Shown: positions 22,103-46,666 of the stretch, one piece after another
Numbering within the stretch: position 1 is the first letter of the stretch
How the letters are laid out: each line of letters begins with the position of its first letter
NCBI RefSeq assembly: GCF_003576595.1
Contig: NZ_NQOU01000002.1
Coordinates: forward strand, 496,001 to 560,000
DNA from: Neopusillimonas maritima
GTDB taxonomy: Bacteria > Pseudomonadota > Gammaproteobacteria > Burkholderiales > Burkholderiaceae_B
DNA: 64,000 nucleotides
Direction of reading: 5' to 3'
Translations under genes and position numbers: made by a program
The notes under the pieces: model-generated
What the model saw: the letters and a program-made list of their open reading frames with translations, nothing else
Told to the model about the DNA's origin: nothing
Database searches by the model: none

Positions 22103-22217
22103 TATCTTCCCCACCTGCGCGCCTGACCGGAAGCAAACAAGGAGGCGCATGACCCTCATTTGCCGTTACATACAAACAGTGCAGGCCGTGGCCTACACTG
22201 TTTGCGACTACATTGGC

Positions 22218-28239: not shown

Positions 28240-29046
28240 TCAGGCCGCTTTTTTGCTACGACGACGCGGCTTGGGTGAACTCAACTCAACCTCGCTTGAA
28301 GCGGAGGTTTCGTCTTCCAGAAGATCCATATGCAAACGGATGCAATCACTGGGGTAGGTAATTTCACCGACGTAAATCACCACATCGTCTTTCGATGTTA
28401 CGACACAGCGGCACTCTGCGATAGGTGCGCTTAGTGAAACCCCCAATAAATTGGCCACTTCAGGATCGGCCGTGCCGATTGTCATGGTTTGGTGCGCTCG
28501 CTTAACAACCGTTCCACGCAATGTATCGAACACCGCCAGCGCGGTGTGCTCCATGAATTCGTCGTAGTACTTGTCGAAAATGCCTTTTTCAATATGCACG
28601 TTCACAACGGCATAGGGCAGGCCGTCGCGCAACTGAAGGCTGCGCAGGAAACCGTACTCTTCGGCCAGCTTGCCTTCATCGGGCGCAAGCCTGGGGTGCG
28701 AGGGCGGGTTGGCCACTTCAATAAAACGCGGGACGTTTCGTTTAATGGAACGAATAATCGCCGACCACGACGTTTCCAGTGTGAGCCAACGTCGATCGTT
28801 AACTTGCTCGGCCACAAACGTACCGCGCCCCTGCTGGCGTTTCAGCAACCCTTCTTTTTCCAGCAGACCCACCGCCTGGCGAACCGTGACGCGCGCACGC
28901 TGGAACTCTTCTTCAAGCTCCTCAAGCGTAGAGATTTTTTCCCCCGGCAACCACTCGCCCGTTTCAATACGCCGTCTTAGCGCCGAGGCCACTTGAATAT
29001 AAGCCGGGATATGGCCACTCAAACTCTCTGCTTGTCCTTTTTGCAT
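28240..29046 (-). CDS. GntR-family (HutC/UTRA) transcriptional regulator
   Basis: The 268-residue protein has an N-terminal winged helix ('IPAYIQVASALRRRIETGEWLPGEKI' region; 'ARVTVRQAVGLLEKEGLLKRQQGRGTFV' region) and a C-terminal UTRA ligand domain (~95-245), ending in a basic tail (PKPRRRSKKAA). It is the only regulator in the 6.4-39.5 kb island and lies between the Mo-hydroxylase and pxp genes, so it is the candidate for the TNCTA-N4-TAGNA sites. Its own promoter lacks that site; it has a TGCCC-N7-GGGCA dyad near 29088-29104. Confidence 0.88.
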   Translation of the reverse strand: MQKGQAESLSGHIPAYIQVASALRRRIETGEWLPGEKISTLEELEEEFQRARVTVRQAVGLLEKEGLLKRQQGRGTFVAEQVNDRRWLTLETSWSAIIRSIKRNVPRFIEVANPPSHPRLAPDEGKLAEEYGFLRSLQLRDGLPYAVVNVHIEKGIFDKYYDEFMEHTALAVFDTLRGTVVKRAHQTMTIGTADPEVANLLGVSLSAPIAECRCVVTSKDDVVIYVGEITYPSDCIRLHMDLLEDETSASSEVELSSPKPRRRSKKAA

Positions 29047-29173: not shown

Positions 29174-30199
29174 TTAGTTCACACCGCTGCTTAAATTTTC
29201 CAGCCTTAACGCCTCAAGATCAATCACCCCGCCGGGCGCAAAGCTGCGCATGCCGTGGCTTTCCAGCTGCTCCAGCCACGCTTGAGTTTCACACGCGATA
29301 CTTTCGGCCTGGTCAAGCGTGACCTGTTTGAAATGCACCTGCGCTCCGGGACGACGACGCCCCAAAATGGGGATATCGGTGGAAATCACGGTGGCGATTT
29401 TGGGATACCCCCCGGTTGTTTGTGCATCGGCCAACAATACAATAGGCAGCCCCGAACCGGGCACCTGAATGGCCCCGCTTACAATGCCATCGGAAACCAG
29501 ATCATAACCTTCTGCATGCTGAATGACCGGGCCGTCAAGACGAAACCCCATGCGATCGGCCTGTCCCGACACGACATACGGCTGCGTGAGAAAGCCTTCT
29601 ATGGCGCTGTCGGTGAAATAATTATGTTGCGGCCCAAGCACCACACGAACCGGTTGTTCATAGCCGTAATCGAAAGGCTCCAGCAACGCCTTTTCATCTC
29701 GAATGTCGACACTGGATTGCACCAACGGAAGGCCATCGCCGCGCTTTAGGGTACGTCCTTCCAGCCCCCCGATTGCGCCCCGTACATACGTGGACACACT
29801 GCCCAGCTGCACCGGCAGGTTGAAGCCGCCCTCAACCGCCAAGTAGGCACTCAGCGATTGACCCAGCGCACCCACCTTCACCTTATCGCCTTTCATCAGC
29901 CGAACGCTGCGCCCCGCCGGCACGGTGAACTTGCGTGCGCCTTCCACAGTAAGATCGGCCTCGCAACCGAACAGCGCAACACGCACGGAATCGGCCTGCA
30001 CCTCCAGGGCCACGCCCTGCAGCAACATCTCCAACACCGGGCAATGGCGGTCATTACCCACCAGCATGTTGGCGACGCCTGCGCTGATCTTGTCCAGCGC
30101 CCCCGACACCGGCACGCCGACGTCTTGATAACCCATGCGCCCCATATCCTGAATCGTGGAATAAGGCCCGGCGTCCAGCACCTTCAACCCGTTACTCAT
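29174..30199 (-). CDS. pxpC: 5-oxoprolinase subunit C (PxpC, KipA-like)
   Basis: The 341-residue protein belongs to the biotin-dependent carboxyltransferase-like family: 'KVLDAGPYSTIQDMGRMGYQDVGVPVSGALD' region at the N-terminus, 'FLTQPYVVSGQADRMGFRLDG' region and 'SGLPIVLLADAQTTGGYPKIATVIS' region. With PxpA and PxpB it opens 5-oxoproline to glutamate using ATP. It overlaps pxpB by four bases. The location beside F420 and Mo-hydroxylase genes suggests it may act on a related lactam rather than only on 5-oxoproline (inference). Confidence 0.92.
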   Translation of the reverse strand: MSNGLKVLDAGPYSTIQDMGRMGYQDVGVPVSGALDKISAGVANMLVGNDRHCPVLEMLLQGVALEVQADSVRVALFGCEADLTVEGARKFTVPAGRSVRLMKGDKVKVGALGQSLSAYLAVEGGFNLPVQLGSVSTYVRGAIGGLEGRTLKRGDGLPLVQSSVDIRDEKALLEPFDYGYEQPVRVVLGPQHNYFTDSAIEGFLTQPYVVSGQADRMGFRLDGPVIQHAEGYDLVSDGIVSGAIQVPGSGLPIVLLADAQTTGGYPKIATVISTDIPILGRRRPGAQVHFKQVTLDQAESIACETQAWLEQLESHGMRSFAPGGVIDLEALRLENLSSGVN

Positions 30200-30918
30200 A
30201 CCGTCACCTCTTCACACTTAACCTCGTATTCGTCGGCTGCAACCGCGTCGCGAATGCGTTGATATTCATTTGAATCCACCGGCTTGAAACGCACCTTGTC
30301 GCCCGGCTTGAACAAAGCGGGCGCCTCATGACGTATATCGAACAAACGAATAGGTGTTGCGCCGATAAGATGCCACCCCCCCGGACTTTCAATGGGGTAG
30401 ACGGCCGTCATGCTTGACGCAATGGCGACAGAACCCGGCGGCACGCGCGTACGGGGATTGCTGCGCCGAGGCAGCACCAGTTGCTTGGGCAAATCTCCCA
30501 TATAGGGGTAGCCCGGCACGAAACCAATCATGTATACGTGAAACTGCGTGTCGGCGTGCAGTTGAACCACCTGTTCCGTCGTTAAGCCCGCAGTTTGCGC
30601 CACTTCCTGCAAATCGGGCGCGTACTCGCCGTCGTAGCATACCGGCACCGACCACTGGCGCACCGCCTGCGGTTCCGTGTCTTCACTTTCCAGCAAGTCC
30701 TTAAGGGTTTCCTGCAACTGCGCACCACGTACTTGCGTGGGATCATAATTAATAAGCAGGGAACGAAACGTGGGCACCAAATCGACCACGCCGGGCACGT
30801 TCAGCGCGCGAATCCGCCGACTTAAAGCCAGCACCTGATCGCTTAATACACGATCAATCACCTCGCCAAACTGCACCACCATTGCGGTGTCGCCGGCACT
30901 TAGAAACTGCACTGTCAT
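30196..30918 (-). CDS. pxpB: 5-oxoprolinase subunit B (PxpB, KipI-like)
   Basis: The 240-residue KipI/allophanate-hydrolase-subunit-1 fold protein shows 'FLSAGDTAMVVQFGEVID', 'PVCYDGEYAPDLQEVA' and 'GFVPGYPYMGDLPKQLVLPRR' region with 'PGSVAIAS' and 'SPGGWHLIG'. It partners PxpC, encoded with a four-base overlap. It is the first gene of the minus-strand pxpBC pair and divergent from pxpA across a 169-base regulatory region. Confidence 0.92.
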   Translation of the reverse strand: MTVQFLSAGDTAMVVQFGEVIDRVLSDQVLALSRRIRALNVPGVVDLVPTFRSLLINYDPTQVRGAQLQETLKDLLESEDTEPQAVRQWSVPVCYDGEYAPDLQEVAQTAGLTTEQVVQLHADTQFHVYMIGFVPGYPYMGDLPKQLVLPRRSNPRTRVPPGSVAIASSMTAVYPIESPGGWHLIGATPIRLFDIRHEAPALFKPGDKVRFKPVDSNEYQRIRDAVAADEYEVKCEEVTV

Positions 30919-31087: not shown

Positions 31088-31864
31088 ATGACTTTATCGG
31101 TAAATCTTAATGCAGATATGGGCGAGGGGTTTGGTGCATACGACATCGGAGACGACAACGCCATTCTGAAAATCATCCGCTCTGCAAACATTGCTTGCGG
31201 CTTCCACGCGGGCGACGCCAACACCATGCGGCGCGTTGTGGAAAATGCCAAAAAAGAAGGCGTCAGCATCGGTGCACATACGGGCTTTAACGACCTGTGG
31301 GGCTTTGGCCGCCGCCGCATTCAAATGAAAGCGAGCGACCTGGAAAACATGATCGCCTACCAAATTGGCGCATTGCAAGCCATGGCCGCGTATGCCGGTG
31401 AGAAAGTCACCCACGTGAAACCCCACGGCGCACTGAATAACATGGCCGCCGAAGACGAAGACTACGCCATGGCCATTGGTCGTGCGCTTAAAACGGTAGA
31501 CCCTAACCTTATTTACGTTGCGCTATCGGGTTCCGAAATGGAAAAAGCCGCAGAGCGTTTGAATTTGCCGCTGGCACGCGAAGGTTTCTGTGACCGCTTG
31601 TACGACGACAACGGCAACCTGGTGTCACGCGCAGTGGCCGGGTCGGTGATTAAAGATCCGAAAGTGGCCACCGAACAGGTGGTGCGCATGGTGACCGAAG
31701 GTGAAATTATTTCGATGTCGGGCAAGCGCGTAAAACGTCGGGTTGATTCTTTATGTGTGCATGGCGACGAGCCCACGGCAGTTGCGTTGGCCGCCATGGT
31801 GCGCGAAGGTTTGGAAGCTGCCGGAGTCAAAATTCTGCCGCTGACTGAAATGAAGCTTAACTAA
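31088..31864 (+). CDS. pxpA: 5-oxoprolinase subunit A (PxpA, LamB/YcsF family)
   Basis: The 258-residue protein has the LamB/YcsF motifs 'LNADMGEGFGAYDIGDD' (N-terminus), 'ANIACGFHAGDANTM', 'HTGFNDLWGFGRR' and 'HVKPHGALNNM', plus 'SLCVHGDEPTAVALA'. It is the lactam-phosphorylating or -hydrolysing partner of PxpBC. AAGGA precedes ATG 31088; the longer frame to 30989 crosses the operator and is rejected. It leads the plus-strand F420 operon, 18 bases before npdG. Confidence 0.93.
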   Translation: MTLSVNLNADMGEGFGAYDIGDDNAILKIIRSANIACGFHAGDANTMRRVVENAKKEGVSIGAHTGFNDLWGFGRRRIQMKASDLENMIAYQIGALQAMAAYAGEKVTHVKPHGALNNMAAEDEDYAMAIGRALKTVDPNLIYVALSGSEMEKAAERLNLPLAREGFCDRLYDDNGNLVSRAVAGSVIKDPKVATEQVVRMVTEGEIISMSGKRVKRRVDSLCVHGDEPTAVALAAMVREGLEAAGVKILPLTEMKLN

Positions 31865-31882
31865 CCTATCCAGGAGCTCCAA

Positions 31883-32545
31883 ATGGAAAACCAACCTAAA
31901 ATTGCGATTCTTGGCGGCACGGGAGCCTTGGGTTCCGGGCTTGCAAAACGTTGGGTGCAAGCCGGCTTTCCGGTTATTGTCGGTTCAAGAACGGCGGAAA
32001 AGGCACAAGAAGCAGCCAACGCCTTAACGCCTGCTGCAGGCGGCCCCGCTCCCACCGGCATGAGCAACTACGACGCCGCCAAAGCGGCCGACGTTGTCGT
32101 GCTTACCGTACCGTTTTCAAATCACGATGCCATTCTCGACGAAATCAAAGACGTTGTTGAAGGCAAAATTGTTGTTGATGCGGTCGTGCCGCTGGTACCA
32201 CCCAAAGTAGCGGTTGTGCAACTGCCGCCTGAAGGCTCGGCCGGCATGATTGCGCATAACAAAATTGGCGATAAAGCCCGTGTCGTTTCCGCTTTTCAAA
32301 ACGTGGGTGCCAACAAGCTGCAAGCCGAAGGCCCGATTGCCTGCGATATTCTGGTTACCGGCAACGACGTTGAATCGCGCAAAACCGTTATTTCTTTAAT
32401 TGAGCCCATTGGTATGCGCGGCATTGATGCCGGGGCCATTGCCAACGCCGCCGCGGCGGAAGCCATGACCTCATTGCTGATCGGCATCAACAAACGTTAC
32501 AAGGTCGATTGCGCGGGCATTCAAATTACCGGCATTAACGGCTAA
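31883..32545 (+). CDS. npdG: NADPH:F420 oxidoreductase (FNO/NpdG family)
   Basis: The 220-residue protein has the FNO Rossmann motif 'IAILGGTGALGSGLAKRW', 'VGSRTAEKA' (NADP 2'-phosphate site) and 'SAFQNVGANKL'. It carries hydride between NADPH and F420; in bacteria it usually makes F420H2. AGGAG precedes the ATG. In the picrate (npd) gene clusters of actinobacteria the same enzyme supplies F420H2 to hydride transferases, a useful parallel for this island. Confidence 0.92.
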   Translation: MENQPKIAILGGTGALGSGLAKRWVQAGFPVIVGSRTAEKAQEAANALTPAAGGPAPTGMSNYDAAKAADVVVLTVPFSNHDAILDEIKDVVEGKIVVDAVVPLVPPKVAVVQLPPEGSAGMIAHNKIGDKARVVSAFQNVGANKLQAEGPIACDILVTGNDVESRKTVISLIEPIGMRGIDAGAIANAAAAEAMTSLLIGINKRYKVDCAGIQITGING

Positions 32546-32555
32546 GGCACGCGTT

Positions 32556-33335
32556 ATGCCCCACCTGCCTCATACGTCGATTCACCTGAACGCGCTGGCC
32601 GACTTCCCCATGATTGAGCCAAACAATGATTTGGCCACGGTTCTGATTCAAAGCCTGCAGCACAACGGCATTGCATTGGAAACGCGGGATGTGGTCGTGC
32701 TGGCGCAGAAAATCGTCTCGAAGGCAGAGGGGCGGCTTGTGCGCCTGGCCGATGTGCAACCGTCTGCCCGGGCGCTTGAGGTTGCCGAAGAAATCAACAA
32801 AGACAGCCGCATGATTGAGCTGATTTTGTCTGAAAGTCGGGAGATCGTTGCGCAGCGCCCCGGTGTATTAATTGTTGAGCACCGCCTGGGCTACATCATG
32901 GCCAATGCGGGTATCGATCAGTCGAATATCGATCACCCCAACGATGAAGAATACGCCCTGCTGCTGCCGGAAAACCCGGATCAAACATGCGCCCAACTTA
33001 AAAGTGCACTCGACCGCCACTTCAATGCCGATGTGGGGGTCATTATTAACGACAGTTTCGGGCGCCCATGGAGAATGGGTGTGACGGGCGTCGCGCTTGG
33101 GTCGGCGGGCTTGCCCAGCTTGCTGAGCTTAATTGGAAAGCCCGACCTCTATGGCCGTGCAATGCGCGTATCGGAAATTGCTTTTGCCGATGAAATTGCC
33201 GCCGCTGCCTCTTTAATTATGGGGCAAACCAGCGCCGGGCAACCCGTGGTTCACGTGCGCGGGCTTCAGTGGGAAGAGCCAAGCAATTCCGCCCAAACCT
33301 TATTACGCCCCAGACATCAAGATTTATTTCGTTAG
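32556..33335 (+). CDS. cofE: F420-0:gamma-glutamyl ligase
   Basis: The 259-residue stand-alone CofE shows 'VVVLAQKIVSKAEGRLV', 'IVEHRLGYIMANAGIDQSNID' region, 'GVIINDSFGRPWRMGVTGVALG' region and 'AFADEIAAAASLIMGQ'. It adds glutamates to F420-0 with GTP and divalent metal. In actinobacteria it is the N-terminal half of FbiB; here the reductase half appears to be a separate gene (37540-38235). It lies ten bases after npdG. Confidence 0.94.
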   Translation: MPHLPHTSIHLNALADFPMIEPNNDLATVLIQSLQHNGIALETRDVVVLAQKIVSKAEGRLVRLADVQPSARALEVAEEINKDSRMIELILSESREIVAQRPGVLIVEHRLGYIMANAGIDQSNIDHPNDEEYALLLPENPDQTCAQLKSALDRHFNADVGVIINDSFGRPWRMGVTGVALGSAGLPSLLSLIGKPDLYGRAMRVSEIAFADEIAAAASLIMGQTSAGQPVVHVRGLQWEEPSNSAQTLLRPRHQDLFR

Positions 33336-33352
33336 GAATGAGGCCCAGCGCA

Positions 33353-34345
33353 ATGACCGATCACCGCCCACCTTCCCTTCACTCATCCAAACGTGTGCTG
33401 GCCCTGTGTGGCGGTGTCGGCGGCGCCAAACTTGCCCGTGGCCTGAACGATCTTATTACGCAACCCGGCAACCTCACTATTACGGTCAACACCGGCGACG
33501 ACTTTGAGCACCTGGGCCTCAACATATGCCCGGATCTGGACTCGGTTGTATACGCCTTGGCCGACAAGAACGACCGCGAGCGCGGCTGGGGGCGGGCCGA
33601 CGAAACCTGGCATTGCCTTGAGTCACTCAAAGAACTGGGCGCAGAAAGCTGGTTTGCGCTGGGCGACCGCGACCTGGCCATGCACCTTGAACGCAGCCAC
33701 CGCTTGCGCTCGGGGCAAACGTTGTCTGACGTTACCGCGCATATCTGCCGGCAACTGGGCATTCGCGCCCAAGTCATCCCCATGAGCAACAACCCGGTGC
33801 GTACGGTGCTTCACACCAACGAGGGTGCCCTGGCTTTTCAGGATTACTTTGTCCGCAAAATGGGTAAGCCCAAAGTGGAAAGCCTCTCTTATACCGGGGC
33901 CGACATCGCGCAGCCGCAAGCCGATTTAATGGCGCGTCTGGCCGACCCCGAACTGGACGCCATTGTTATTTGCCCGTCGAACCCGCAGCTCAGTATCGAA
34001 CCCATACTGGCCTTGAACGGTGTGCGCGAGGCATTGCGTCTTTCAAAAGTACCGGTTGTGGCGGTGTCCCCGCTCATTGGCGGCAAAGCAGTGAAAGGGC
34101 CGGCCGCAAAAATAATGCAAGAGCTCGAAATCCCGGTTGACTCCACCGGTATCGCACAGGTTTATCTCGACTTCATCAAGGGCTTGGTCATCGATCAGGC
34201 CGATGAGCTCGACGCAGCATACGTATCGGTTCCCACTGTAGTGACACAAACGTTGATGAAAAGCCCGGAAGACGCCTTGAGTCTTGCGCAAGCAACACTT
34301 GAATTTGCTGACAAATTGCGTCTTGAGGCCACTCAAACAAAGTAG
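33353..34345 (+). CDS. cofD: 2-phospho-L-lactate-type transferase (CofD/FbiA)
   Basis: The 330-residue product has 'VLALCGGVGGAKLARGLND', 'TVNTGDDFEHLGLNICPDLDSVVYALA' region, 'GWGRADETW' and 'ICPSNPQLSIEPILAL' with 'VAVSPLIGGKAVKGPAAKIM'. It joins Fo to the activated three-carbon acid to make (dehydro)F420-0. The start MTDHRPP (33353, GAGG nine bases before) is preferred over the longer GTG at 33269, which would run deep into cofE. Confidence 0.94.
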   Translation: MTDHRPPSLHSSKRVLALCGGVGGAKLARGLNDLITQPGNLTITVNTGDDFEHLGLNICPDLDSVVYALADKNDRERGWGRADETWHCLESLKELGAESWFALGDRDLAMHLERSHRLRSGQTLSDVTAHICRQLGIRAQVIPMSNNPVRTVLHTNEGALAFQDYFVRKMGKPKVESLSYTGADIAQPQADLMARLADPELDAIVICPSNPQLSIEPILALNGVREALRLSKVPVVAVSPLIGGKAVKGPAAKIMQELEIPVDSTGIAQVYLDFIKGLVIDQADELDAAYVSVPTVVTQTLMKSPEDALSLAQATLEFADKLRLEATQTK

Positions 34346-34356
34346 AGCGAGGATGT

Positions 34357-35106
34357 ATGACAGCTCACCGCCTGGCGGCAGTTATACCCGTTAAAAGTTT
34401 CAGCTATGCCAAACAACGGCTGCAGCCGGTATTGTCGGGCAGCGAGCGGCGGCTTCTTGCCCAAGCCATGTTTGAAGATGTCATGGACACGCTCACGCAG
34501 TGCCGGGCACTAAGCGGCGTCTATGTGATGACCAGCGACCCCGAGGCGGTGCAGCTTGCCGCCGATAGAGGAGTAAACACACTTCACGACCCGATTATCG
34601 GCGGGCTTTCAGGCGCCGTGGCTAGCGCTGCGCAAACCCTTAAAAGCGTTGGTTTTGAAGGCATGCTGGTGGTGCCGGCAGACGTACCGGGTATCGACAC
34701 ACGAAGTGTTGACCGCATTATCAACCAGCATGGCGCACCGCGATCAGTCACCCTGGTGCCGGCCTTGCGAGACGGTGGCACCAACGCCATGCTGTGTTCG
34801 CCACCCGATGTTATTCCGAACTGTTTCGGCCACAACAGTTTCCGGGCGCACTGCCAGTTGGCGGCCTCGTCGGGCGCGCAATTGAACACGTTAAGCCTGC
34901 CCCAACTTCAATACGACATCGACCGGCCCCTTGATTTGCTTTCCTTCCTGCAACAGGAAAGCCCGACCCGCACGTACCGCTTTTTAATTCAAAGCGGCAT
35001 TGCCGACCGTTTACACCAAACTTCGCGCTCCGTTTTTTCATTGGCGAGTACGTTTTTTCCGTATGCCGAACAAACGCCGGCCATTTCGAGCATTCACAAA
35101 GGATGA
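34357..35106 (+). CDS. cofC: Phospholactate/PEP guanylyltransferase
   Basis: This 249-residue nucleotidyltransferase has 'AVIPVKSFSYAKQRLQPVL', 'VVPADVPGID', 'DGGTNAMLCSPP' and 'GHNSFRAHC' with 'YDIDRPLDL'. It activates phosphoenolpyruvate, 2-phospholactate or 3-phosphoglycerate with GTP for CofD; the choice cannot be read safely by eye. About 45 C-terminal residues extend past the conserved core. It overlaps the longer possible fbiC start by four bases. Confidence 0.92.
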   Translation: MTAHRLAAVIPVKSFSYAKQRLQPVLSGSERRLLAQAMFEDVMDTLTQCRALSGVYVMTSDPEAVQLAADRGVNTLHDPIIGGLSGAVASAAQTLKSVGFEGMLVVPADVPGIDTRSVDRIINQHGAPRSVTLVPALRDGGTNAMLCSPPDVIPNCFGHNSFRAHCQLAASSGAQLNTLSLPQLQYDIDRPLDLLSFLQQESPTRTYRFLIQSGIADRLHQTSRSVFSLASTFFPYAEQTPAISSIHKG

Positions 35107-35114
35107 TTATTGCT

Positions 35115-37547
35115 ATGCAAAACTCAAACTCCCGCATGCACACGCCTCTTTCTGAAAGCGCGGCCTACGACCTGATTAACCAACCGATTTCGTCGCTGTG
35201 CAAGACAGCGGCCCAATTGCGCGACGCCGGCCACGGCGAAGTTGTTTCCTATTCTCGTAAGGTTTTTATTCCGCTTACCCAGTTGTGCCGCGATGTGTGC
35301 CATTACTGCACCTTTGCGCAAACACCGCGCAAAATGCCCGCGCCCTACTTAAGCATTCAACAGGTTGTTGATATCGCCCGCCAGGGCGCCAAAACGCAGT
35401 GCAAGGAAGCTTTGTTCACTCTGGGTGACAAACCCGAGTTACGCTACCGCGCTGCGCGCGAAGCGCTCGACGAAATGGGTTACGACAGCACCATCAGTTA
35501 CCTGATTGCGGCCTGCAAGGCGGTGTACGAGGAAACCGGGCTTATTCCGCATGTGAACCCGGGCCTGCTCACGCGCGACGATTTACTGCAATTGCGCACG
35601 GTTTCTGCGTCGCAGGGCATTATGCTCGAGAACGTTTCGCCCCGTTTGTGCGAACCGGGCCAAGCCCATTACGGCTCGCCCGACAAGCACCCCGAGGCAC
35701 GCCTGGAAACCCTTCGACTGGCCGGTGAAACCCGGGTTCCGTTCACGTCGGGCATTCTGATTGGCATCGGCGAAACCCGGCGCGAGCGCATCGACTCACT
35801 GCTGGCTTTGCGCAAGCTGGATCAGGAATTCGGGCACATTCAGGAAATCATTGTTCAGAATTTCCGCCCCAAGCCCGGCACCCTCATGGCCAACGCCGAA
35901 GCGCCGTCGCTTGAAGAGCACCTATGGACAATCGCCGCAGCACGTTTGATTTTCGGGCCGGACGCCAACATTCAGGCCCCGCCCAACCTTCAGCCTGAAG
36001 GCCTGAAGCAATTAATCGATGCCGGCATTAACGACTGGGGCGGCGTCTCGCCCATTACGCCCGACCACGTGAACCCGGAAGCGCCCTGGCCGCACCTTGA
36101 GGCGCTGTCGGTGGCAACGGAAAAAGCCGGCAAGGTTCTGGCCGAACGTTTAACTGTTTATCCCAAATACGTACGCGAACTGGCCGACTGGGTCGACCCC
36201 GGTTTCCATACCCGTATTCTGCAATTAAGCGACGGCCATGGCCTGGCTTACACCGACGCCTGGACGGCCGGCAGCCAAACTCCGCCCCCTGAAAAAATCG
36301 TTCGGCAAGCCAAACAGGCCCCTTGCAGCGGCCCGGCCGTGCACAGCGAAGTCAGCGCCATTCTGAGCCGCGCACAAGCGGGAAGAACCTTAACCGAGCG
36401 TCACATTGAACGCCTGTTTCAGGCCCATGGCAGCGCCTTTTCCACCATTTGTCAGGCCGCCGATGAGGTACGCCGTCACGTGAACGGCAACGACGTCACG
36501 TTTGTGGTGAATCGCAATATCAACTACACCAACATCTGCGGTTACCGCTGCCAGTTTTGTGCATTCGCAAAAGGCAAGGGCGCGGAAGATTTGCGCGGCA
36601 AGCCTTATGACTTGCCGTTAGAGGAAATTCAACGGCGTGTGCTGGAAGCGTGGGAGCGTGGCGCTACCGAAGTGTGCATGCAAGGCGGCATTCACCCCTC
36701 GTACACCGGTGAAACCTATAAGGAAATTTGCGAGACCGTGAAAGCGGTGGTGCCGGAAATGCATATTCATGCGTTTTCGCCGCTGGAGATCTGGCAAGGC
36801 GCCGAAACCTTGAACATGCCGCTGAAAGACTACCTGTTGATGCTGAAGGAAAGCGGACTGTCGACACTGCCGGGCACGGCGGCTGAAATTCTCGACGACG
36901 AAATCCGCAAGATTATTTGTGTCGATAAGGTCACCACAGACCAATGGATGCAGGTAATGCGCTCGGCCCATCAGGTTGGCCTGAAAAGCACGTCAACGAT
37001 TATGTTTGGCCACATTGAAGGCTACAAACATTGGGCGCGCCACTTGCTGCTGCTGCGCGAACTGCAAATGGAAACCGGCGGCATTACCGAGTTCGTGCCG
37101 CTGCCGTTCGTTCATATGGAGTCGCCCATTTACAGAAAAGGGCGCGCACGCAAAGGCCCCACTTTCCGCGAGGCGATTCTGATGCACGCGGTGGGGCGTT
37201 TGGCGCTGCACCCGCACATACCGAACATTCAGGCTTCGTGGGTGAAAATGGGCGTAACCGGTGTTGAGCTGTGCCTGAACGCCGGCGCCAACGACCTGGG
37301 CGGCACGCTGATGAACGAAACCATTTCACGCTCGGCCGGCGCGTCGCACGGCCAGGAAATGACGGCGCCCACGTTAGAGTCGCTGTTGATTTCAATGGGG
37401 CGTACGCCGCGCCAACGTTCCACTGCCTACGGCTCCGTTCCCGAGCATTTGCAACAACGGGCGCGGGAAGCCAAGCCCCCCATTCAGGCCATCGTGCCGC
37501 TTATGCGCAAACATGCCAAACGCCCCCGGGAAGTGGCTCATGTATAG
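35115..37547 (+). CDS. fbiC: Fo synthase, fused CofG-CofH radical SAM enzyme
   Basis: The ~810-residue protein has two radical SAM domains. The N-terminal one (CofG type) has CRDVCHYC (C58, C62, C65) and the C-terminal one (CofH type) has CGYRCQFC (C475, C479, C482). It makes the deazaflavin Fo from tyrosine and the flavin precursor. The fused form is typical of actinobacteria and some other bacteria, whereas archaea and cyanobacteria have two proteins. ATG 35115 is preferred (AAAGGA 11 bases before); ATG 35103 overlaps that site. Confidence 0.95.
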   Translation: MQNSNSRMHTPLSESAAYDLINQPISSLCKTAAQLRDAGHGEVVSYSRKVFIPLTQLCRDVCHYCTFAQTPRKMPAPYLSIQQVVDIARQGAKTQCKEALFTLGDKPELRYRAAREALDEMGYDSTISYLIAACKAVYEETGLIPHVNPGLLTRDDLLQLRTVSASQGIMLENVSPRLCEPGQAHYGSPDKHPEARLETLRLAGETRVPFTSGILIGIGETRRERIDSLLALRKLDQEFGHIQEIIVQNFRPKPGTLMANAEAPSLEEHLWTIAAARLIFGPDANIQAPPNLQPEGLKQLIDAGINDWGGVSPITPDHVNPEAPWPHLEALSVATEKAGKVLAERLTVYPKYVRELADWVDPGFHTRILQLSDGHGLAYTDAWTAGSQTPPPEKIVRQAKQAPCSGPAVHSEVSAILSRAQAGRTLTERHIERLFQAHGSAFSTICQAADEVRRHVNGNDVTFVVNRNINYTNICGYRCQFCAFAKGKGAEDLRGKPYDLPLEEIQRRVLEAWERGATEVCMQGGIHPSYTGETYKEICETVKAVVPEMHIHAFSPLEIWQGAETLNMPLKDYLLMLKESGLSTLPGTAAEILDDEIRKIICVDKVTTDQWMQVMRSAHQVGLKSTSTIMFGHIEGYKHWARHLLLLRELQMETGGITEFVPLPFVHMESPIYRKGRARKGPTFREAILMHAVGRLALHPHIPNIQASWVKMGVTGVELCLNAGANDLGGTLMNETISRSAGASHGQEMTAPTLESLLISMGRTPRQRSTAYGSVPEHLQQRAREAKPPIQAIVPLMRKHAKRPREVAHV

Positions 37548-38235
37548 AACGGACACCCTCGAACGGCCGTGGCAAGACCCTGCCGACGTCGGTGAAGCAT
37601 CGCCCGATGCTCGCTTCACCGACGTTGTATTGAACCGGCGATCGGTGCGGCGCTACCTGCCCGAGCAGCCCCCTTTGGCAGCAATTAACCGGCTGCTGGA
37701 AATGGCTGTTACCGCGCCGTCGGCGCATAATCGGCAACCCTGGCGATTTGTGGTGATTCGCAGCTACCAGGAAAAAGCCAGGCTGGCCAAAGCCATGGGC
37801 GACAAGCTTGAACGCGACCGCATGGCCGACAACGACGACCCCGTCGACATCAAGAACGACGTTGCGCGTTCTTTCGCCCGCATTACCGGCGCGCCCACGC
37901 TCATTCTGCTGTGCGTCACGATGGCGGAGATGGACAGCTACCGCGACGCCGACCGAAGCCGACATGAATTCTGCATGGCAACGCAAAGTGTTGCCATGGC
38001 GGGCCAGAACATCATGCTGGCTGCGCAAGCATCCGGGCTTTCATCGTGCTGGATGTGCGCCCCCATGTTTTGCCCGACACTGGTTCAAACAACGCTGAAC
38101 CTGCCTGAAGACTGGGTTCCGCAAGGCATGCTTACAGTGGGATATCCGGCAAATACAGGCAAGCCTTTTGTTCGCAAGCCGATACAAGATGTTGTCGTTT
38201 ATCTCGACGAGGCACCCCATGCCACGTCCCAATAA
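37540..38235 (+). CDS. Nitroreductase-family protein, FbiB C-terminal-like
   Basis: The 231-residue product is an FMN-dependent nitroreductase fold: 'RRSVRRYLPEQPP', 'TAPSAHNRQPWRFVVI', 'SVAMAGQNIMLAAQASGLSSCWM' region and 'LPEDWVPQGMLTVGYP'. It resembles the C-terminal half of FbiB, which reduces dehydro-F420-0. It overlaps the fbiC stop by eight bases, so it is part of the F420 operon. If it has this role, the pathway here uses PEP. The alternative is an unrelated nitro or enoate reductase. Confidence 0.82.
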   Translation: MYRTDTLERPWQDPADVGEASPDARFTDVVLNRRSVRRYLPEQPPLAAINRLLEMAVTAPSAHNRQPWRFVVIRSYQEKARLAKAMGDKLERDRMADNDDPVDIKNDVARSFARITGAPTLILLCVTMAEMDSYRDADRSRHEFCMATQSVAMAGQNIMLAAQASGLSSCWMCAPMFCPTLVQTTLNLPEDWVPQGMLTVGYPANTGKPFVRKPIQDVVVYLDEAPHATSQ

Positions 38236-38268
38236 TTTTCTTAATTACAACGCATTACAGGAGACGTC

Positions 38269-39489
38269 ATGTTCACCCACAACAAAAACGCAACCCGTTC
38301 CGACTACCCCGCCGAGTTGCAGCACATCATGAATCTTGAGCGAGCAAATGAATCGCGCGAATGGCTTTCAAGCTGGCGCATGCTAAGCGTGGAACCCACC
38401 CCCCTTGTCTCCATGAAACACCTGGCCCAAAAACTGGGGGTGGGTGCCGTTTTCCTGAAAGACGAATCGAAACGCTCTCCTTTAGGCAGTTTCAAAGCGT
38501 TAGGTGCGTCAATTGCACTGGTCAGACTCATCTTGCGTAAATTCCCCGACGCAGGCTTCACCGCCCAATCGCTTTTCAAAGGCGAACACGCGCAAACACT
38601 TAAAGACTTCACGGTTGTCAGCGCCACTGCCGGGAACCACGGTTCTTCATTGGCTGCGGCCGCGCGGGATATTGGATGCCGCTGTGTGATTGTTTTAAGC
38701 AGCCAGGTGAGTGCCGACCGCGAAAACGCCATTGCCTCGAACGGCGCGGAAATTGTGCGCGTTGCGGGCGACTACGATGACTCGGTTGAACATGCCGAGT
38801 CTTTATCGAAAACAGAAGGCTGGCTGGTGGTGTCGGACACTTCTTACGAAGGCTATGAAGAGATCCCCCGCGACGTGATGCAAGGTTACGCCACGATTCC
38901 GTCGGAAGTCATCGACCAGCTGGATGCAAAGAACGCCGATACTCCCCCGTTTACCCACGTGTTTTTGCAAGGCGGCGTGGGCGGCATGGCAGCCGGTATT
39001 ACCGCATACTTGTGGGAGCGCTACGGTAAAAAACGCCCCACCCTGATTGTGGTGGAACCGAACCAGGCCGATTGCCTTTACCAAAGTGCGCTTGCCGGGC
39101 ATGCGGCCAGCGCAACCGGTGATATCGACTCTTTAATGGCCGGCCTGGCGTGCGGCGAAGCGTCTCCGCTGGCGTGGCGTTTCCTGCAACCCGCCTGCGA
39201 TTATTTCATTACCGTATCCGATACGAAAGCCGTTGAAGCCATGAAGATATTGGCGGAAGGACAATACGGCGATGTACCGATTGTGAGCGGCGGCTCCGGT
39301 GCGGCAGGCCTGGCGGCCCTTGTTGAACTCACCGAAAACGCCGCGCAAGGTAAAGAAGCCGGCATCAACGAAACATCCAAAATATTGTTGATTAATACCG
39401 AAGGGGCCACCGCGCCCACCGATTATCTGAAGCAAGTAGGTAAAACTGCGGAAGAAGTGCTTGCCGCCGCAGCCAAGGTGCAGGCCTGA
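38269..39489 (+). CDS. Diaminopropionate ammonia-lyase-like PLP enzyme
   Basis: A 406-residue fold type II PLP enzyme of the DpaL/YgeX family: 'SPLGSFKALGAS' with the Schiff-base K76, 'SATAGNHGSSLAAAAR', 'FLQGGVGGMAAGITAYLW' and the phosphate loop 'SGGSGAAGLAAL'. Known members turn 2,3-diaminopropionate into pyruvate and ammonia. AGGAG precedes the ATG. It ends the pxpA-F420 operon and is followed by a terminator. In the island it could deaminate an amino acid produced by ring opening (inference). Confidence 0.87.
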   Translation: MFTHNKNATRSDYPAELQHIMNLERANESREWLSSWRMLSVEPTPLVSMKHLAQKLGVGAVFLKDESKRSPLGSFKALGASIALVRLILRKFPDAGFTAQSLFKGEHAQTLKDFTVVSATAGNHGSSLAAAARDIGCRCVIVLSSQVSADRENAIASNGAEIVRVAGDYDDSVEHAESLSKTEGWLVVSDTSYEGYEEIPRDVMQGYATIPSEVIDQLDAKNADTPPFTHVFLQGGVGGMAAGITAYLWERYGKKRPTLIVVEPNQADCLYQSALAGHAASATGDIDSLMAGLACGEASPLAWRFLQPACDYFITVSDTKAVEAMKILAEGQYGDVPIVSGGSGAAGLAALVELTENAAQGKEAGINETSKILLINTEGATAPTDYLKQVGKTAEEVLAAAAKVQA

Positions 39490-39538
39490 TCTAAAAAAAA
39501 CAATTTAAGAAACCTGAACCCCGGCATGACAGGCCAAG

Positions 39539-39574
39539 TAAAAAGGGCGGCGAAGGAATTCGTCGCCCTTTTAC
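39539..39574 (+). terminator. Rho-independent terminator after the F420 operon
   Basis: A stem with 14-base arms (AAAAGGGCGGCGAA and TTCGTCGCCCTTTT, one G-T pair, loop GGAA) lies 50 bases after the ammonia-lyase stop and ends in a T-rich stretch. Its symmetric A and T ends allow it to stop the convergent ccdAB transcript also. Confidence 0.85.
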
Positions 39575-39597
39575 TATCACGTGCGCAACGCACCGCA

Positions 39598-39915
39598 TCA
39601 ATAACCGTGAAACAAAAAATCGAGCGCAGCCGTAATTCTTGCGTGCTCATGCGTTAATGAAGCAACAGCACGCTTCAAAACACGCCGTGGTATGGCACCC
39701 ATCTTAGGCGTTTCCAGTAAATAGCTTTCACCGTTAATTTCAAATACGGGCGTAAGATGCGTTGACAACTTCACATTCGGAAAGTCGCTTAAACGGCGCA
39801 ACGGTATCACAACGCAACTGCCTAAGTCGTCCAGAAGATCGCTTTGCACATTAAGCAAATAAGGCGTGGTTGTGGCGTGCTTGCCTGGGTTGGCATAAAC
39901 ATCGAAACGCGCCAT
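39598..39915 (-). CDS. ccdB: CcdB-family toxin
   Basis: The 105-residue product shows 'MARFDVYANPGK', 'TPYLLNVQSDLLDDLGSCVVIPL' region, 'LTPVFEINGESYLLETPKMGAIP' region and a short hydrophobic end (ALDFLFHGY). CcdB poisons DNA gyrase. The C-terminus is …HGY, not the W-G-I end that contacts gyrase in plasmid F CcdB, so activity is uncertain. The start shares one base with the ccdA stop (TAATG), which excludes the ATG at 39930. Confidence 0.88.
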   Translation of the reverse strand: MARFDVYANPGKHATTTPYLLNVQSDLLDDLGSCVVIPLRRLSDFPNVKLSTHLTPVFEINGESYLLETPKMGAIPRRVLKRAVASLTHEHARITAALDFLFHGY

Positions 39916-40151
39916 TAGAAACTTTTCCACTCATCGAGCGGTAATCCTTCATTTTCAATGGTTTCGTTATAGGCGTTTATAAAGCCCGCATGCTCGTTAC
40001 GCCAACGACGCGCTTGCTCAAGACGAACAATTTCCCGCAAATGTGCATCGCACACTTGCGAAATATTGATCCCCAATTGCTTTGCTTGCTTTAAAACGTC
40101 GACACTGAGGCTTAAATTGGTCGCACGCTTGGCGGAGTGCGTAGTTATCAT
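39915..40151 (-). CDS. ccdA: CcdA-family antitoxin
   Basis: The 78-residue product has an N-terminal ribbon-helix-helix ('KRATNLSLSVDVLKQAKQLGINIS' region) and an acidic tail ('NAYNETIENEGLPLDEWKSF') that matches the CcdA toxin-wrapping end, where …DEWxxF is typical. The start MITTHS (40151) has AAGGA six bases before it; longer starts at 40157 or 40190 are less likely. It is located between the F420 operon and cysNC. Confidence 0.88.
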   Translation of the reverse strand: MITTHSAKRATNLSLSVDVLKQAKQLGINISQVCDAHLREIVRLEQARRWRNEHAGFINAYNETIENEGLPLDEWKSF

Positions 40152-40233: not shown

Positions 40234-42189
40234 TTACAACAGCCCCGCCAACCTAGTCACAATCGCACCCATTTCTTCGCTTTCGGTTTTCACCAATACA
40301 TCGGGTCGTTCCGGCGCTTCGTACGCACTGTTGATACCGGTCATGTTGGGAATTTCACCTTTACGGGCACGTTTGTACAAGCCTTTGGGATCGCGGGCTT
40401 CACACACTTCCAGCGGCGTATCCACGAACACTTCCATAAAACGCTCTTCGCCAATGAGTTCGCGCGCCATGTCACGCTCGCGACGGTAGGGCGAAATAAA
40501 CGCGGTCATGACGATTAAACCGGCGTCCATCATGAGCTTGGCCACTTCAGCAATGCGGCGGATATTTTCCACTCGGTCGGCTTCGGTAAAGCCCAGGTCT
40601 TTGTTCAGGCCCTGGCGAATATTGTCGCCGTCCAGAATGTAGGTGCGGCGGCCCTGTTCGTGCAATTGCTTTTCCAGGACATTGGCAATAGTGGATTTAC
40701 CCGAGCCCGACAGGCCGGTGAACCAAATGACTTTACCGGGGTGGCCGTTCAGGCGTTCGCGGTCTTCACGCGTAATGCTTAGCGCCTGGCGATGCACGTT
40801 CTGGGCGCGTCGCAGGCTGTGGGTAATCATGCCCGCCGCAACGGTGGCATGGGTGAAGCGGTCGACCAGAATAAAGCCGCCCAGCGCGGGCAGATTGGCA
40901 TACGTATCGAACGCCACCGGACGGCTCAGCGCCACATTACACACGCTAATGTCATTCAGGCCCAACTGCCTTGCGGCCTCATGGGCCAGGGTGTTCACGT
41001 TAATGCGATGTTTAATAGTCGTTAGCGTGGCGCCGGCCCACTGATTGGCCAGCTTCATTTCATAGCTGCGCCCCACCAGGCCGGGGTCGTCGTGCATCCA
41101 GACAATGGTGGCTTCGAATTGGTCGGTTGTGTTTAACGGCGTGTCGGCGCGCGTAAGAATGTCGCCCCGCGAGGCATCGATTTCGGTGTCCAGCGTGAGC
41201 GTAATGGCATCGCCGGCCTGGGCCTTGTTCAGATCGCCGTCCATGGTGACGATGCGCGCGACATTGGCGGTTTGGCCCGAGGCGGTGACGCGCACGGTTT
41301 CGCCGGGTTCAATATGCCCGGCCACGACGGTACCGCTGAAACCACGGAAGTCGGCGTCGGGCCGGTTCACCCATTGCACCGGCAGCACAAACTGTTGGTC
41401 GTTTCGGCGCGTAACCGGTACGGTTTCCAGATAGCCCAATAAAGTGGGGCCGGTATACCAGCCCGTATGGGCGGAGCGCTCCACCATGTTGTCGCCCTTC
41501 AGCGCCGACACGGGAATCGCGGTGATGCTTTCAAACCCCAACGCTTGAGCAAAGGTTTTGAAGGTTTCTTCTATTTCATTGAATGTGGCCTGGTTGTAGT
41601 TGACCAGATCCATTTTGTTCACTGCCAGCACCACGTGGCGAATGCCCACCAGCGACGTTAAGAAGGCGTGACGCCGGGTTTGGGTTAACACGCCCTGGCG
41701 CGCATCGGCCAGCAACACGGCCACGTCGGCTGTTGAGGCACCCGTGACCATATTGCGAGTGTACTGCTCGTGACCGGGGGTGTCGGCCACAATGAATTTG
41801 CGATGCTGCGTGGCAAAGAAACGATAGGCCACGTCAATCGTAATACCCTGTTCGCGCTCGGCCGCCAGGCCATCCACCAACAGCGCGAAGTCGATCTCTT
41901 CGCCTTGCGTGCCGTGGCGGCGTGAATCGGCTTCCAGCGTGGCAAGCTGGTCATCAAACAGTTGCTTGGACTCCCACAGCAGGCGACCGATCAGGGTGCT
42001 TTTACCGTCATCGACACTGCCGCAGGTAATAAAGCGCAACAGGTCGTGGCCCGATTGCTGGGCGATCCAATCGGCGGCGCTGGTGTATTCCACCGGCGTA
42101 TGTGTCGTTGTTTGCTTTCGCGCTTTTGCCGTTTCAGATGCACCGTCGGACACTTTCTGTTGAGCGGAATTTGTATTCGAGCGAGCCAT
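40234..42189 (-). CDS. cysNC: Sulfate adenylyltransferase subunit 1 / APS kinase fusion
   Basis: The 651-residue protein starts with a ~30-residue polar leader, then the EF-Tu-like GTPase of CysN ('[16 protein letters not shown]', '[12 protein letters not shown]', 'NKMDLV'), beta-barrel domains, and a C-terminal APS kinase ('[18 protein letters not shown]' near residue 470, '[15 protein letters not shown]'). It drives ATP sulfurylase with GTP and then phosphorylates APS to PAPS. This agrees with the PAPS-type CysH encoded at 51.9 kb. It overlaps cysD by one base. Confidence 0.95.
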
Positions 42190-43748
42190 TAGAAATATCC
42201 TTCCTGTTTTTTCTTTTCCATGCTGCCGGCGCTGTCGGTGTCAATTTTGCGACCCTGACGTTCGGATGTGCGCGCGTTAATGAGTTCCAGCAAAATGTCG
42301 TCGAGCGAGTCGGCCTGAGACTCGACCGCACCGGTAAGGGGGTAGCAGCCCAGGGTACGGAAACGCACCGGTTTCATTTGAATGTCTTCACCGGGCAACA
42401 GGCGGCAGCGGTCGTCGTCAACCATCATGATCATGTCGTCGCGCACCACCACCGGACGCGGCTCGGAAAAATACAAGGGCACCACGGGAATGTCTTCCTG
42501 GTATATGTATTGCCAAATGTCCAGCTCGGTCCAGTTCGACAACGGAAAGACGCGAATACTCTCGCCGGGGTTTTTCTTGGTGTTGTACAAGTTCCAAAGT
42601 TCAGGGCGCTGGTTTTTTGGGTCCCAACGGTGGGTGGCGGTGCGGAACGAAAACACGCGTTCCTTGGCGCGCGACTTTTCTTCATCGCGCCGGGCACCGC
42701 CGAACACCACGTCGAATTTGTATTTATCCAGCGCTTGCTTCAGGCCTTCGGTTTTGGTGATGTCGGTATGCAGAGCGGAACCGTGATCGAACGGGTTAAT
42801 GTCTTTTTCAATGGCCTCCGGATTAATGTGTACCAGCAAATCCATGCCCGATTCAGCCGCCATGTAGTCGCGAAACAGGTACATTTCCTGAAACTTCCAG
42901 CGGGTGTCCACATGGAGCAGCGGAAACGGCGGCGGTGCAGGGTAGAAGGCCTTGCGCGCCAGGTGTAACATGACCCCGCTGTCTTTGCCCACGGAATACA
43001 ACATGGCGGGGTTCTGTGCTTCGGCCACCGCTTCACGAATAATATGAATGCTTTCCGCTTCCAGGCGCTTTAAGTGAGGCGACACACCAATGCCCTGGGC
43101 CTTGCGGCGCGGACGCAGGTTCAACACGGGTTGATAGGCTTGAAGAAGCAGGGTTACGCCGTTGGGTATGAGGGTGGGCGTGGCGCCAGGGGCAATGCCG
43201 GTGTCTGTTTGAGAGGATGATACGTTGCGCAATAGGCCCACCAGTTCACCGTGCGGAAATACGGCAATGTCTTTGCCAATATGCTGTTGCAGTTGCGCCA
43301 GAGCGGCGAGTATTACACTTAGGGTTGCCTCTACATCAACCTCACCCTGATCGGCCTCACATGCCCTACCGGGCGCGGCGGCACCTAACGGCACCCAGAA
43401 ACGGGCGCCGCGCGGGTCGTTGGCGTGCAGGCAAGGCAGGCCGTTGGGTAAATTGGCCAGTTGCGCGAACAGAATGCGTTTACGCTGGCTGCGCATTTTT
43501 TCCAGCGCCCAGTTCAGCACCACGGTGCGAGGTACGCGGCCTTGCTCGTCACGCAAATTATCAGCGTTCAGTTCCGCCGGCAGCAGTTTAAGTTCATGCA
43601 AGCGCCGTTCAGTGGTGCGCCGGGTATGCGCGGCGTTGTCGCCGGCCAAATGGGCATGGGCCAGGTCGATATCCCACACCTGGGGTTGATCGAGCCCTTG
43701 CACAGAAGTGGCCGGATGGGTTTTAGAGGCAACAGTTGATTCAGGCAT
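42189..43748 (-). CDS. cysD: Sulfate adenylyltransferase subunit 2 with ~220-residue N-terminal extension
   Basis: The last ~298 residues (from V222, '[23 protein letters not shown]' region) are a complete CysD: '[21 protein letters not shown]' region (PP-loop), '[20 protein letters not shown]' and '[12 protein letters not shown]'. The first ~220 residues are an added segment that I do not recognise ('[18 protein letters not shown]', '[13 protein letters not shown]', '[16 protein letters not shown]'). A GTG at V222 is a possible internal start, but the extension is one long open frame of normal composition. It forms ATP sulfurylase with CysN. Confidence 0.88.
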
Positions 43749-43836
43749 TGTCGTAATTTGCAGTTATTAGCTTAGTATTGTGATTATCAAGGCACACTGC
43801 TAGCATTTCAACTCCCTAATTCGCTATAAGCAAATA

Positions 43837-45550: not shown

Positions 45551-45572
45551 GTTAATCGCTCTTAAAGAGACA

Positions 45573-46412: not shown

Positions 46413-46666
46413 ATGTTTCTCCTTGCATACTTATCCATAACCCACAGGCCAGAAAGAAATCTGACCCCAAACTCAATAATACACTAAGTGAAATAAATGA
46501 AATAAACGAAGCAAATTGCCATTTAATTTCTACATTTTGCATTGTTTCAAAAACACATAAACAAATAACCTGCGCAGGAATAAGAATATAACCAGCACAA
46601 AAATATAAACATAACGATTCAGTTGTTTGGTTGGGCGCCAACGGTTCCTAGAATGAAAGCACTTTC
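46413..46666. promoter_or_regulatory. AT-rich divergent region before cysJ, with two dyads
   Basis: This 254-base, AT-rich gap holds the antitoxin promoter (minus) and the cysJ promoter (plus). Visible dyads are GTTGG-gcg-CCAAC (46630-46642) and ATGAAAG-ca-CTTTCAT (46653-46668), the second reaching into the cysJ start codon. A CysB site is expected, but its consensus is too loose to place by eye. I see no gene in it. Confidence 0.45.

Follow-up and report, generated by a model that had tools for sequence, protein, structure and literature searches.

Production of the cofactor F420 has been published for Alpha- and Betaproteobacteria, and a betaproteobacterium that makes it is as such no novelty; the passages of the same 2021 review on its use state that neither an F420H2-dependent reductase nor an F420-reducing dehydrogenase had yet been studied experimentally in bacteria beyond actinobacteria (PMC8498797). 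A putative F420 luciferase-family reductase is mentioned for Chloroflexota in part of a paper on the reductive uric acid pathway (PMC12507026), and a genome-wide association study (GWAS) of nodulation competitiveness in Sinorhizobium meliloti tagged a cluster on pSymA in strains GR4, KH35c and KH46 (PMC8407117). In its passages on that cluster, the latter study reports an association, names neither pathway nor substrate and says that the role of F420 merits attention. Here we describe an F420 biosynthesis operon of Neopusillimonas maritima, encoded in a stretch of 64,000 nucleotides (NCBI RefSeq assembly GCF_003576595.1, contig NZ_NQOU01000002.1, positions 496,001 to 560,000; hereafter the window). 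The operon forms one half of a gene island, the other half of which lies on the divergent strand at about 8.8-30.9 kb.

The described proteobacterial F420 operons (fbiC or cofG-cofH, cofC, cofD, cofE and npdG) specify the same enzymes as the one in the window, where each passes a curated cut-off. The operon in the window differs in being embedded in a conserved catabolic island together with a candidate user of the cofactor. We propose, with a probability of about 0.65, that the island (about 8.8-39.5 kb) is a self-contained catabolic unit in which F420 would be used for the reductive opening of an N-heterocyclic acid. The island names one predicted F420 user in proteobacteria, amid a proposed pathway, and its hosts include named strains of Pusillimonas, Cupriavidus, Bradyrhizobium and Sinorhizobium.

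F420 biosynthesis operon

An earlier reading of the window from its sequence alone (the sequence-only reading) had described eight tightly packed plus-strand genes at 31088-39489 that end in one terminator, and coordinates and spacing bear this out. The distances between consecutive genes, from pxpA to dpaL, are 18, 10, 17, 11, −4, −35 and 33 bases. Downstream of dpaL, a hairpin followed by a U tail folds at −24.8 kcal/mol (z = −6.0; 0 of 200 shuffles did as well), although the list given by a consensus terminator scan lacks it. Families were assigned by score against curated NCBIfam cut-offs, and seven of the eight genes pass at least one, the exception being the nitroreductase. The scores are 351.5 for PxpA on the subfamily model NF003814 (cut-off 226), 198.4 for NpdG on TIGR01915 (149.8), 252.4 for CofE on TIGR01916 (180.65), 297.1 for CofD on TIGR01819 (257.45), 143.7 for CofC on TIGR03552 (105), 1149.8 for FbiC on NF006687 (1018) and 487 for DpaL on NF006058 (276). 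CofE falls under the cut-off of a further model, NF009809 (241.6 against 274), as does DpaL under that of TIGR03528 (332 against 532.25); relatives of DpaL among solved structures include 5ygr and 4d9g, and it keeps the SFKALG motif with the lysine.

With FbiC, CofC, CofD and CofE each above a curated cut-off, the F420 pathway is complete by gene content. Both radical-SAM CxxxCxxC motifs of FbiC are retained (residues 62 and 479). CofC has a Gly aligned with S162 of the Mycetohabitans enzyme, the column being placed by the S162/S165 spacing; a Ser at this position marks the 3-phosphoglycerate (3PG) type in the relevant part of the Mycetohabitans work (PMC8764529). The 3PG-F420 variant was set aside because this Ser is missing, and CofC is therefore predicted to be of the phosphoenolpyruvate or 2-phospholactate (PEP/2-PL) type. 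Because of this Gly, the nitroreductase fits a role in dehydro-F420-0 reduction. It scores 132.3 on the FbiB C-terminal model TIGR03553, under the cut-off of 249.55, yet this is still its best-scoring family, and it probably acts in making the cofactor, as a dehydro-F420 reductase, rather than in catabolism.

A candidate F420 user

The most plausible consumer of F420 is encoded in the divergent half of the island. Four luciferase-like (LLM) family proteins were found in the genome, and only the one in the island passes the F420-family model TIGR03619 (196.1 against a cut-off of 166.9); of the remaining three, two score 82.9 and 87.3 and one belongs to the MsnO8 type. The island protein next resembles methylenetetrahydromethanopterin reductases, which use F420, and its orthologues are 59-91% identical to it in a 13-row alignment. 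On these grounds it is a probable F420 user. Beyond this protein, NpdG and the nitroreductase, we noticed no further candidate F420 enzyme in the island. A scan with PF04075 gave no match, but its control was equally silent, so that absence is not established; one PNPOx_N protein was found. An AlphaFold model of the LLM protein was too poor for use (mean pLDDT 61.1).

Conservation of the island

We scanned species genomes for FbiC, kept the best 80 of 392 relatives as loci, many of them short stretches, and matched these with the proteins of the window. Eleven of the best 80 match an island catabolic gene at at least 40% and 69 do not. Loci re-fetched at greater length, plus two plasmid records, gave 14 islands including that of the window; 11 of the 13 relatives were found via FbiC and two (in genomes G100 and G356) via CoaB, the B subunit of the island CoA-transferase. 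The set of importer, molybdenum hydroxylase, GntR regulator, CoA-transferase, LLM protein and F420 genes recurs in alpha- and betaproteobacteria. Its hosts include P. caeni, strain PBA and two Cupriavidus; two Afipia, two Bradyrhizobium and plasmids of S. fredii and S. meliloti; and, further, the LacPavin metagenome-assembled genome (MAG) and G356. In the LacPavin MAG, the island is divided between two contigs and its importer is only partly seen; B. altum has no importer within the fetched stretch, and in Afipia SCN18 fbiC lies on a second contig. Catabolic and F420 genes are thus linked in all but one of the 14 islands (13), the remaining one having its FbiC on another contig. Across 12 relatives, identity to the window is 59-91% for the LLM protein and 68-84% for CoaB.

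No island of the 14 lacks a lyase-family gene of the C3-amino-acid type, dependent on pyridoxal 5′-phosphate (PLP) or an Fe-S cluster by family. DpaL is present in 11 (strain PBA included), a CysK-like PLP protein, whose activity is predicted from its family only, in nine and L-serine ammonia-lyase in two. The CysK-like protein is conserved, 498 residues long and located beside the CoA-transferase or fbiC (e.g. L155 11967-13463); the window genome offers nothing closer to it than a 29% match over 135 residues. PxpA occurs in 11 islands, PxpB and PxpC in seven, and the transhydrogenase PntAB in eight, some stretches ending early. Biotin carboxylase and carboxyltransferase occur in five, and neither was found in S. 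fredii SMH12 or S. meliloti R28. An M20 deacylase is encoded in six islands and a dihydroorotase in three (S. meliloti, S. fredii and C. numazuensis). The pairing of pxpA with dpaL, to which the sequence-only reading had attached weight, is thus neither unique nor random, since the gene set recurs, but neither gene is found in every island.

The cofactor is no exception in this order, a point that the sequence-only reading missed: of 399 order genomes, 24 have an FbiC above its cut-off, and F420 production by betaproteobacteria is published. In the same family, none of 12 sampled genomes has an FbiC above the cut-off. A search with CoaB at 1e-60 matched three of the 399 order genomes (its own, G100 and G356), and both G100 and G356 carry FbiC; among 398 genomes of the phylum, only its own genome matched. 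In 72,556 plasmid records, CoaB and the LLM protein at at least 60% pick out the same 12 records, 10 of S. meliloti and two of S. fredii, all with FbiC; as close relatives, these represent few independent events. CoaB reaches at least 72% in 10 of 14 genome entries compared, that of the window included, and G399, G355/G405 and G409 lie below; G355 and G405 appear to be one genome, with identical coordinates and sequences.

History of the F420 genes

Of 113 FbiC sequences tried for a tree, 111 could be extracted and 110 entered it, L018, L021 and L028 dropping out; the island copy of Afipia sp. 64-13 (L165) is not in the tree. The alpha- and betaproteobacterial island copies fall in one clade of 15 rows, which also holds the FbiC of G355/G405 and L032 from G399. 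The FbiC copies of G356 and G100 lie elsewhere. The molybdenum hydroxylase large subunit (CoxL), CoaA, CoaB and LLM protein of these two are orthologues of those in other islands, 59-75% identical to the window. G356 carries F420 genes of another lineage within its island, whereas the 40-kb contig of the G100 island has no F420 genes and FbiC is found on a separate 6.4-kb contig; three more listed members of the G100 genus have FbiC (G005, G055 and G140), and unmatched members may be unlisted. Either the pairing arose more than once, or the F420 genes were replaced. We read this as a need for F420 that appears to have been met in different ways across islands. A further FbiC of Afipia sp. 64-13, encoded on a contig other than that of its island (L080), groups outside the island clade.

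A further F420 cluster in the Burkholderiaceae MAG DTUPRO3 (L038 505-6563) lies beside a different molybdenum hydroxylase, an LLM protein and an amidase, and is perhaps a second F420 route for heterocycles. In S. meliloti R28 (L113), cofE (17378-18176) and dpaL (35851-37044) are each in two frames, through decay or sequencing errors.

Proposed pathway and substrate

Gene content, catalytic motifs, conserved linkage and the terminator can be read directly from the sequence; from these, and from family membership, which underlies all enzymatic steps, we infer the use of F420 by the LLM protein, the order of steps, an aerobic setting and a carboxylic acid as the substrate. An N-heterocyclic acid would be taken up by the liv-type importer, converted to its CoA thioester by CoaAB and hydroxylated on the ring by the molybdenum hydroxylase. 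The LLM protein would then use F420H2 to reduce the ring double bond that results, by hydride transfer, and the saturated cyclic amide or ureide would be opened by PxpABC or, in Sinorhizobium, perhaps by the dihydroorotase and the M20 deacylase. DpaL or another lyase would finally convert the released amino acid to pyruvate and ammonia. PntAB, in its physiological role, would draw on the proton motive force to keep NADPH high, and NpdG would pass hydride from NADPH to F420, providing a low-potential hydride donor for an aerobe. F420 is most likely made here for this one pathway; the host shows no other evident need of the cofactor, which would be why its synthesis is encoded in the island.

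The island lyases suggest a beta-substituted C3 amino acid, and the 5-oxoprolinase genes suggest a five-membered cyclic amide, carbamate or ureide bearing a carboxylate. Since azole-4-carboxylates fit both hints, our tentative guess is that the substrate is a five-membered azole-4-carboxylate, such as imidazole-, oxazole- or thiazole-4-carboxylate. After hydroxylation at C2 and reduction of the ring, such an acid would be an isostere of 5-oxoproline, and its opening would yield 2,3-diaminopropionate, serine or cysteine. 2-Imidazolidone-4-carboxylate is a ligand of 5-oxoprolinase, although the papers listed by a literature search do not name it. The same enzyme turns 2-oxothiazolidine-4-carboxylate into cysteine, according to part of an earlier account (PMC6257297). 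A wider scheme of aerobic reductive dearomatization of azole-4-carboxylates, in which each heteroatom would have its own lyase (DpaL for N, serine ammonia-lyase for O and the CysK-like protein for S), is more speculative still, and it is equally doubtful that the island is mobile, with the F420 pathway traveling with the catabolic genes. If true, this would be a case of a cofactor pathway that travels with the one client it serves, and in rhizobia the azole pathway would serve nutrition around legume roots.

Several observations weigh against a dedicated catabolic unit of this kind. PxpA misses three PxpA equivalog models (e.g. NF003813, 281.8 against 392) and the PxpC-like protein misses its own (248.8 against 500). 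PxpB and PxpC were not found in the alphaproteobacterial islands, four of which have PxpA alone, and no Pxp gene was found in the islands of S. fredii SMH12 and S. meliloti R28, so the 5-oxoprolinase step varies among islands. No DpaL was found in G356, in G100 or on the LacPavin contigs, and in S. meliloti R28 its gene is split over two frames. The scheme gives no role to the biotin carboxylase or the carbonic anhydrase encoded in betaproteobacterial islands. In G399 (Alcaligenaceae MAG bin108, completeness not stated), cofE to dpaL lie on a 6.9-kb contig with no LLM match and a CoaB of only 28%; the FbiC of G405 belongs to the island clade, yet its neighbors include a different molybdenum hydroxylase, LLM protein and amidase. 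The clade itself has weak support (SH-like approximate likelihood ratio test, SH-aLRT, 80; 96 for the next larger set of 18 rows), and the linkage count is biased, as most relatives were found through FbiC. Finally, the nearest solved sequence to the LLM protein is annotated as an alkanal monooxygenase chain, and LLM folds can bind flavin mononucleotide in place of F420.

Alternative explanations

The alternative that fares best keeps much of the chemistry and changes the substrate. For pyrrole-2-carboxylate or a related pyrrole, the molybdenum hydroxylase would give a 5-oxo-pyrroline, F420H2 would reduce it to 5-oxoproline and PxpABC would release glutamate, leaving DpaL as a side gene. This route needs exactly hydroxylation, reduction and lactam hydrolysis, and no LamB/YcsF protein besides PxpA, encoded 18 bases before npdG, was found in the genome; the route would account for PxpABC as well as our proposal does, a further point against the latter. 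The lyase-family gene present in all 14 islands would nevertheless be superfluous for glutamate, and the Sinorhizobium islands, in which PxpA was not found, encode a dihydroorotase and an M20 deacylase. We regard the pyrrole route as unlikely.

That the F420 genes serve housekeeping or detoxification and lie by chance beside an unrelated catabolic island is improbable. It would agree with the 69 FbiC loci, many of them short, in which no catabolic match was seen, but not with a linkage that holds in 13 of 14 islands, from two classes and from plasmids, with catabolic genes paired with different FbiC lineages, or with the lack of any other LLM protein in the genome above the F420-family cut-off. 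The dedicated catabolic use favored by the sequence-only reading gains from the conserved neighborhood, the absence of FbiC from the 12 sampled genomes of the family and this sole LLM protein. We give similarly little credence to the idea that the LLM protein is a flavin monooxygenase and that another, unrecognized island enzyme uses F420: the fold accommodates both cofactors and the closest solved chain is that of alkanal monooxygenase, but the protein passes TIGR03619, its next likeness is to F420-using reductases, and apart from NpdG and the nitroreductase the island offered no other candidate. A variant of the reductive uric acid or purine pathway ending in diaminopropionate, with the F420 LLM protein replacing YgfK, is the least likely, for although the Escherichia coli pathway ends with YgeX, a DpaL, the molybdenum hydroxylase recurs here and the M20 protein of alphaproteobacterial islands matches YgeY under its cut-off (133.3 against 321), no SsnA scores above cut-off in the whole genome (best 142.3 against 455.5), amidohydrolase, carbamoyltransferase and carbamate kinase are all missing among the scanned window genes, and a conserved CoA-transferase is present instead.

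Gene content and surroundings

The features of both halves, and the basis on which each was assigned, are collected in Table 1. The sequence-only reading had the genes of the operon right, but its limits missed the LLM protein, molybdenum hydroxylase, CoA-transferase, importer and transhydrogenase on the other strand.

Table 1. Coordinates and assignments of island features in the window
Feature	Position	Strand	Basis or remark
pxpA (LamB/YcsF), 5-oxoprolinase subunit A	31088-31864	+	profile search; sole LamB/YcsF gene found in genome
npdG, NADPH:F420 oxidoreductase (Fno type)	31883-32545	+	TIGR01915 passed
cofE, F420-0:glutamate ligase	32556-33335	+	TIGR01916 passed
cofD, phospholactate transferase	33353-34345	+	ATG at 33353; mechanical open reading frame start 33269
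cofC, guanylyltransferase	34357-35106	+	PEP/2-PL type predicted; Gly at 3PG-diagnostic site
fbiC, fused cofG-cofH FO synthase	35103-37547	+	both CxxxCxxC motifs present
FbiB-C-like nitroreductase, probable dehydro-F420-0 reductase	37513-38235	+	under family cut-off
dpaL, diaminopropionate ammonia-lyase family (PLP fold II)	38269-39489	+	SFKALG motif retained
intrinsic terminator, 3′ of F420 operon	39537-39575	+	folding energy against shuffles
pxpB, 5-oxoprolinase subunit B	30196-30918	−	TIGR00370 passed
pxpC-like, CT_A_B family	29174-30199	−	over TIGR00724 cut-off, under PxpC equivalog cut-off
GntR/UTRA regulator	28240-29046	−	profile search
molybdenum hydroxylase large subunit	25692-28076	−	active-site loop PYRGVAR, GxGE motif; CO dehydrogenase cut-offs missed
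molybdenum hydroxylase flavin adenine dinucleotide (FAD) subunit	24877-25695	−	profile search
molybdenum hydroxylase 2Fe-2S subunit with fused CoxG domain	23666-24880	−	profile search
liv-type ABC importer, five genes	18741-23384	−	Pfam scan for substrate-binding protein (22218-23384)
CoA-transferase subunit A	17645-18622	−	glutaconate CoA-transferase-like
CoA-transferase subunit B	16837-17652	−	glutaconate CoA-transferase-like; Glu conserved
TIGR03619 luciferase-like (LLM) oxidoreductase, predicted F420H2 user	15824-16798	−	196.1 against cut-off 166.9
carboxyltransferase subunit, propionyl-CoA carboxylase beta-like	14360-15751	−	in 5 of 14 islands, all beta
biotin carboxylase and biotin carboxyl carrier protein	12327-14363	−	same 5 of 14 islands as carboxyltransferase
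proton-translocating transhydrogenase PntA	11198-12400	−	profile search
proton-translocating transhydrogenase PntB	9456-10886	−	profile search
carbonic anhydrase	8784-9422	−	profile search

Molybdenum hydroxylases use a glutamate base, and CoxG is linked with quinone. An aerobic CO dehydrogenase was considered for the large subunit and rejected, since the CoxL cut-offs are missed (TIGR02416, 448.3 against 991.15; NF040766, 543.4 against 950) and the loop is PYRGVAR. For the 2Fe-2S subunit with its fused CoxG domain, only the iron-sulfur part was matched in G356 (L173 10875-11339). CoaB retains, in all 14 islands, a Glu aligned with glutaconate CoA-transferase (1poi_B) that we take to be the catalytic residue of class I CoA-transferase B subunits, Glu54 of GctB. 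An IpdAB-like ring-cleaving hydrolase was dropped as an alternative to the CoA-transferase, the Glu being kept and GctAB closest. Two distant relatives of the CoA-transferase (about 43%), on Halorientalis and Rubrobacter plasmids, have beta-oxidation and protocatechuate surroundings and give no hint of a substrate. The importer permeases and ATPases were named from annotated S. meliloti orthologues. Across islands, the carboxyltransferase is 34-50% identical to that of the window against 62-76% for its biotin carboxylase partner, as if its substrate differed among islands. A relative of the carbonic anhydrase (30-33%) follows fbiC in two Cupriavidus and strain PBA; an AMP-dependent ligase 613 bases beyond the carbonic anhydrase has no match in the other islands and was excluded from its parts.

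On its left side the island is bordered by genes for HipA-like, Fic-domain and YhaV-toxin proteins (699-1973, plus strand; 3789-5474, plus; 5512-6012, minus), and immediately on its right is a gene of the CcdB family (39598-39930, minus), so toxin-antitoxin-type genes flank it. No repeats of at least 40 bases marking its borders were found within the window. The adjoining region at 40234-48616 contains genes like those of sulfate assimilation (CysN/CysD-like and CysQ-like, named by eye) and a protein with flavodoxin, FAD and NAD reductase domains. In the 64 kb no tRNA was detected, and no Rfam family reaches its gathering score there.

Comparison with known systems

We found no description of this pathway in open-licence PubMed Central, a scope that excludes preprints and holds few subscription papers. 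The npd genes for picrate and 2,4-dinitrophenol in Rhodococcus and Nocardioides reportedly encode a comparable catabolic use of NpdG, together with an F420H2-dependent reduction of the ring; those systems are said to act on nitroaromatic substrates and to draw the cofactor from the host's own genes, not from the cluster. The likeness of the island to the PxpABC 5-oxoprolinase lies in a likely ATP-dependent hydrolysis of a lactam or ureide, but here the genes are linked to those for ring oxidation and reduction, and only PxpA occurs in four alphaproteobacterial islands.

The nearest logic is that of the uric acid cluster of E. coli and Clostridioides difficile (xdhD, ygfK, ssnA, hyuA, ygeW, ygeY and ygeX), with which, on the portions of its description that bear on this (PMC12507026), the island shares a xanthine-dehydrogenase-family enzyme, a reductive ring step, a hydrolytic opening and a DpaL-family lyase leading to pyruvate. 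The island differs in having an F420 LLM protein in place of YgfK, no SsnA above cut-off and hosts that are probably aerobic, and it adds a CoA-transferase, PxpABC, a transhydrogenase and a cofactor pathway. Another paper, PMC12542777, proved a false lead in the part that seemed relevant.

The pSymA cluster tagged by the GWAS matches the island in many functions: FbiC, CofD, LivF, PntA/B, a molybdenum hydroxylase, a GctA/B-like CoA-transferase and an F420 LLM protein, together with diaminopropionate ammonia-lyase, dihydroorotase, M20 deacylase and GntR, as far as its relevant passages list them (PMC8407117). In the S. meliloti GR4 record NC_019848, FbiC, CoaB and the LLM protein are encoded at 67659-73013. 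For this cluster, already associated in S. meliloti with competitiveness in nodulation, the proposed pathway supplies a concrete hypothesis.

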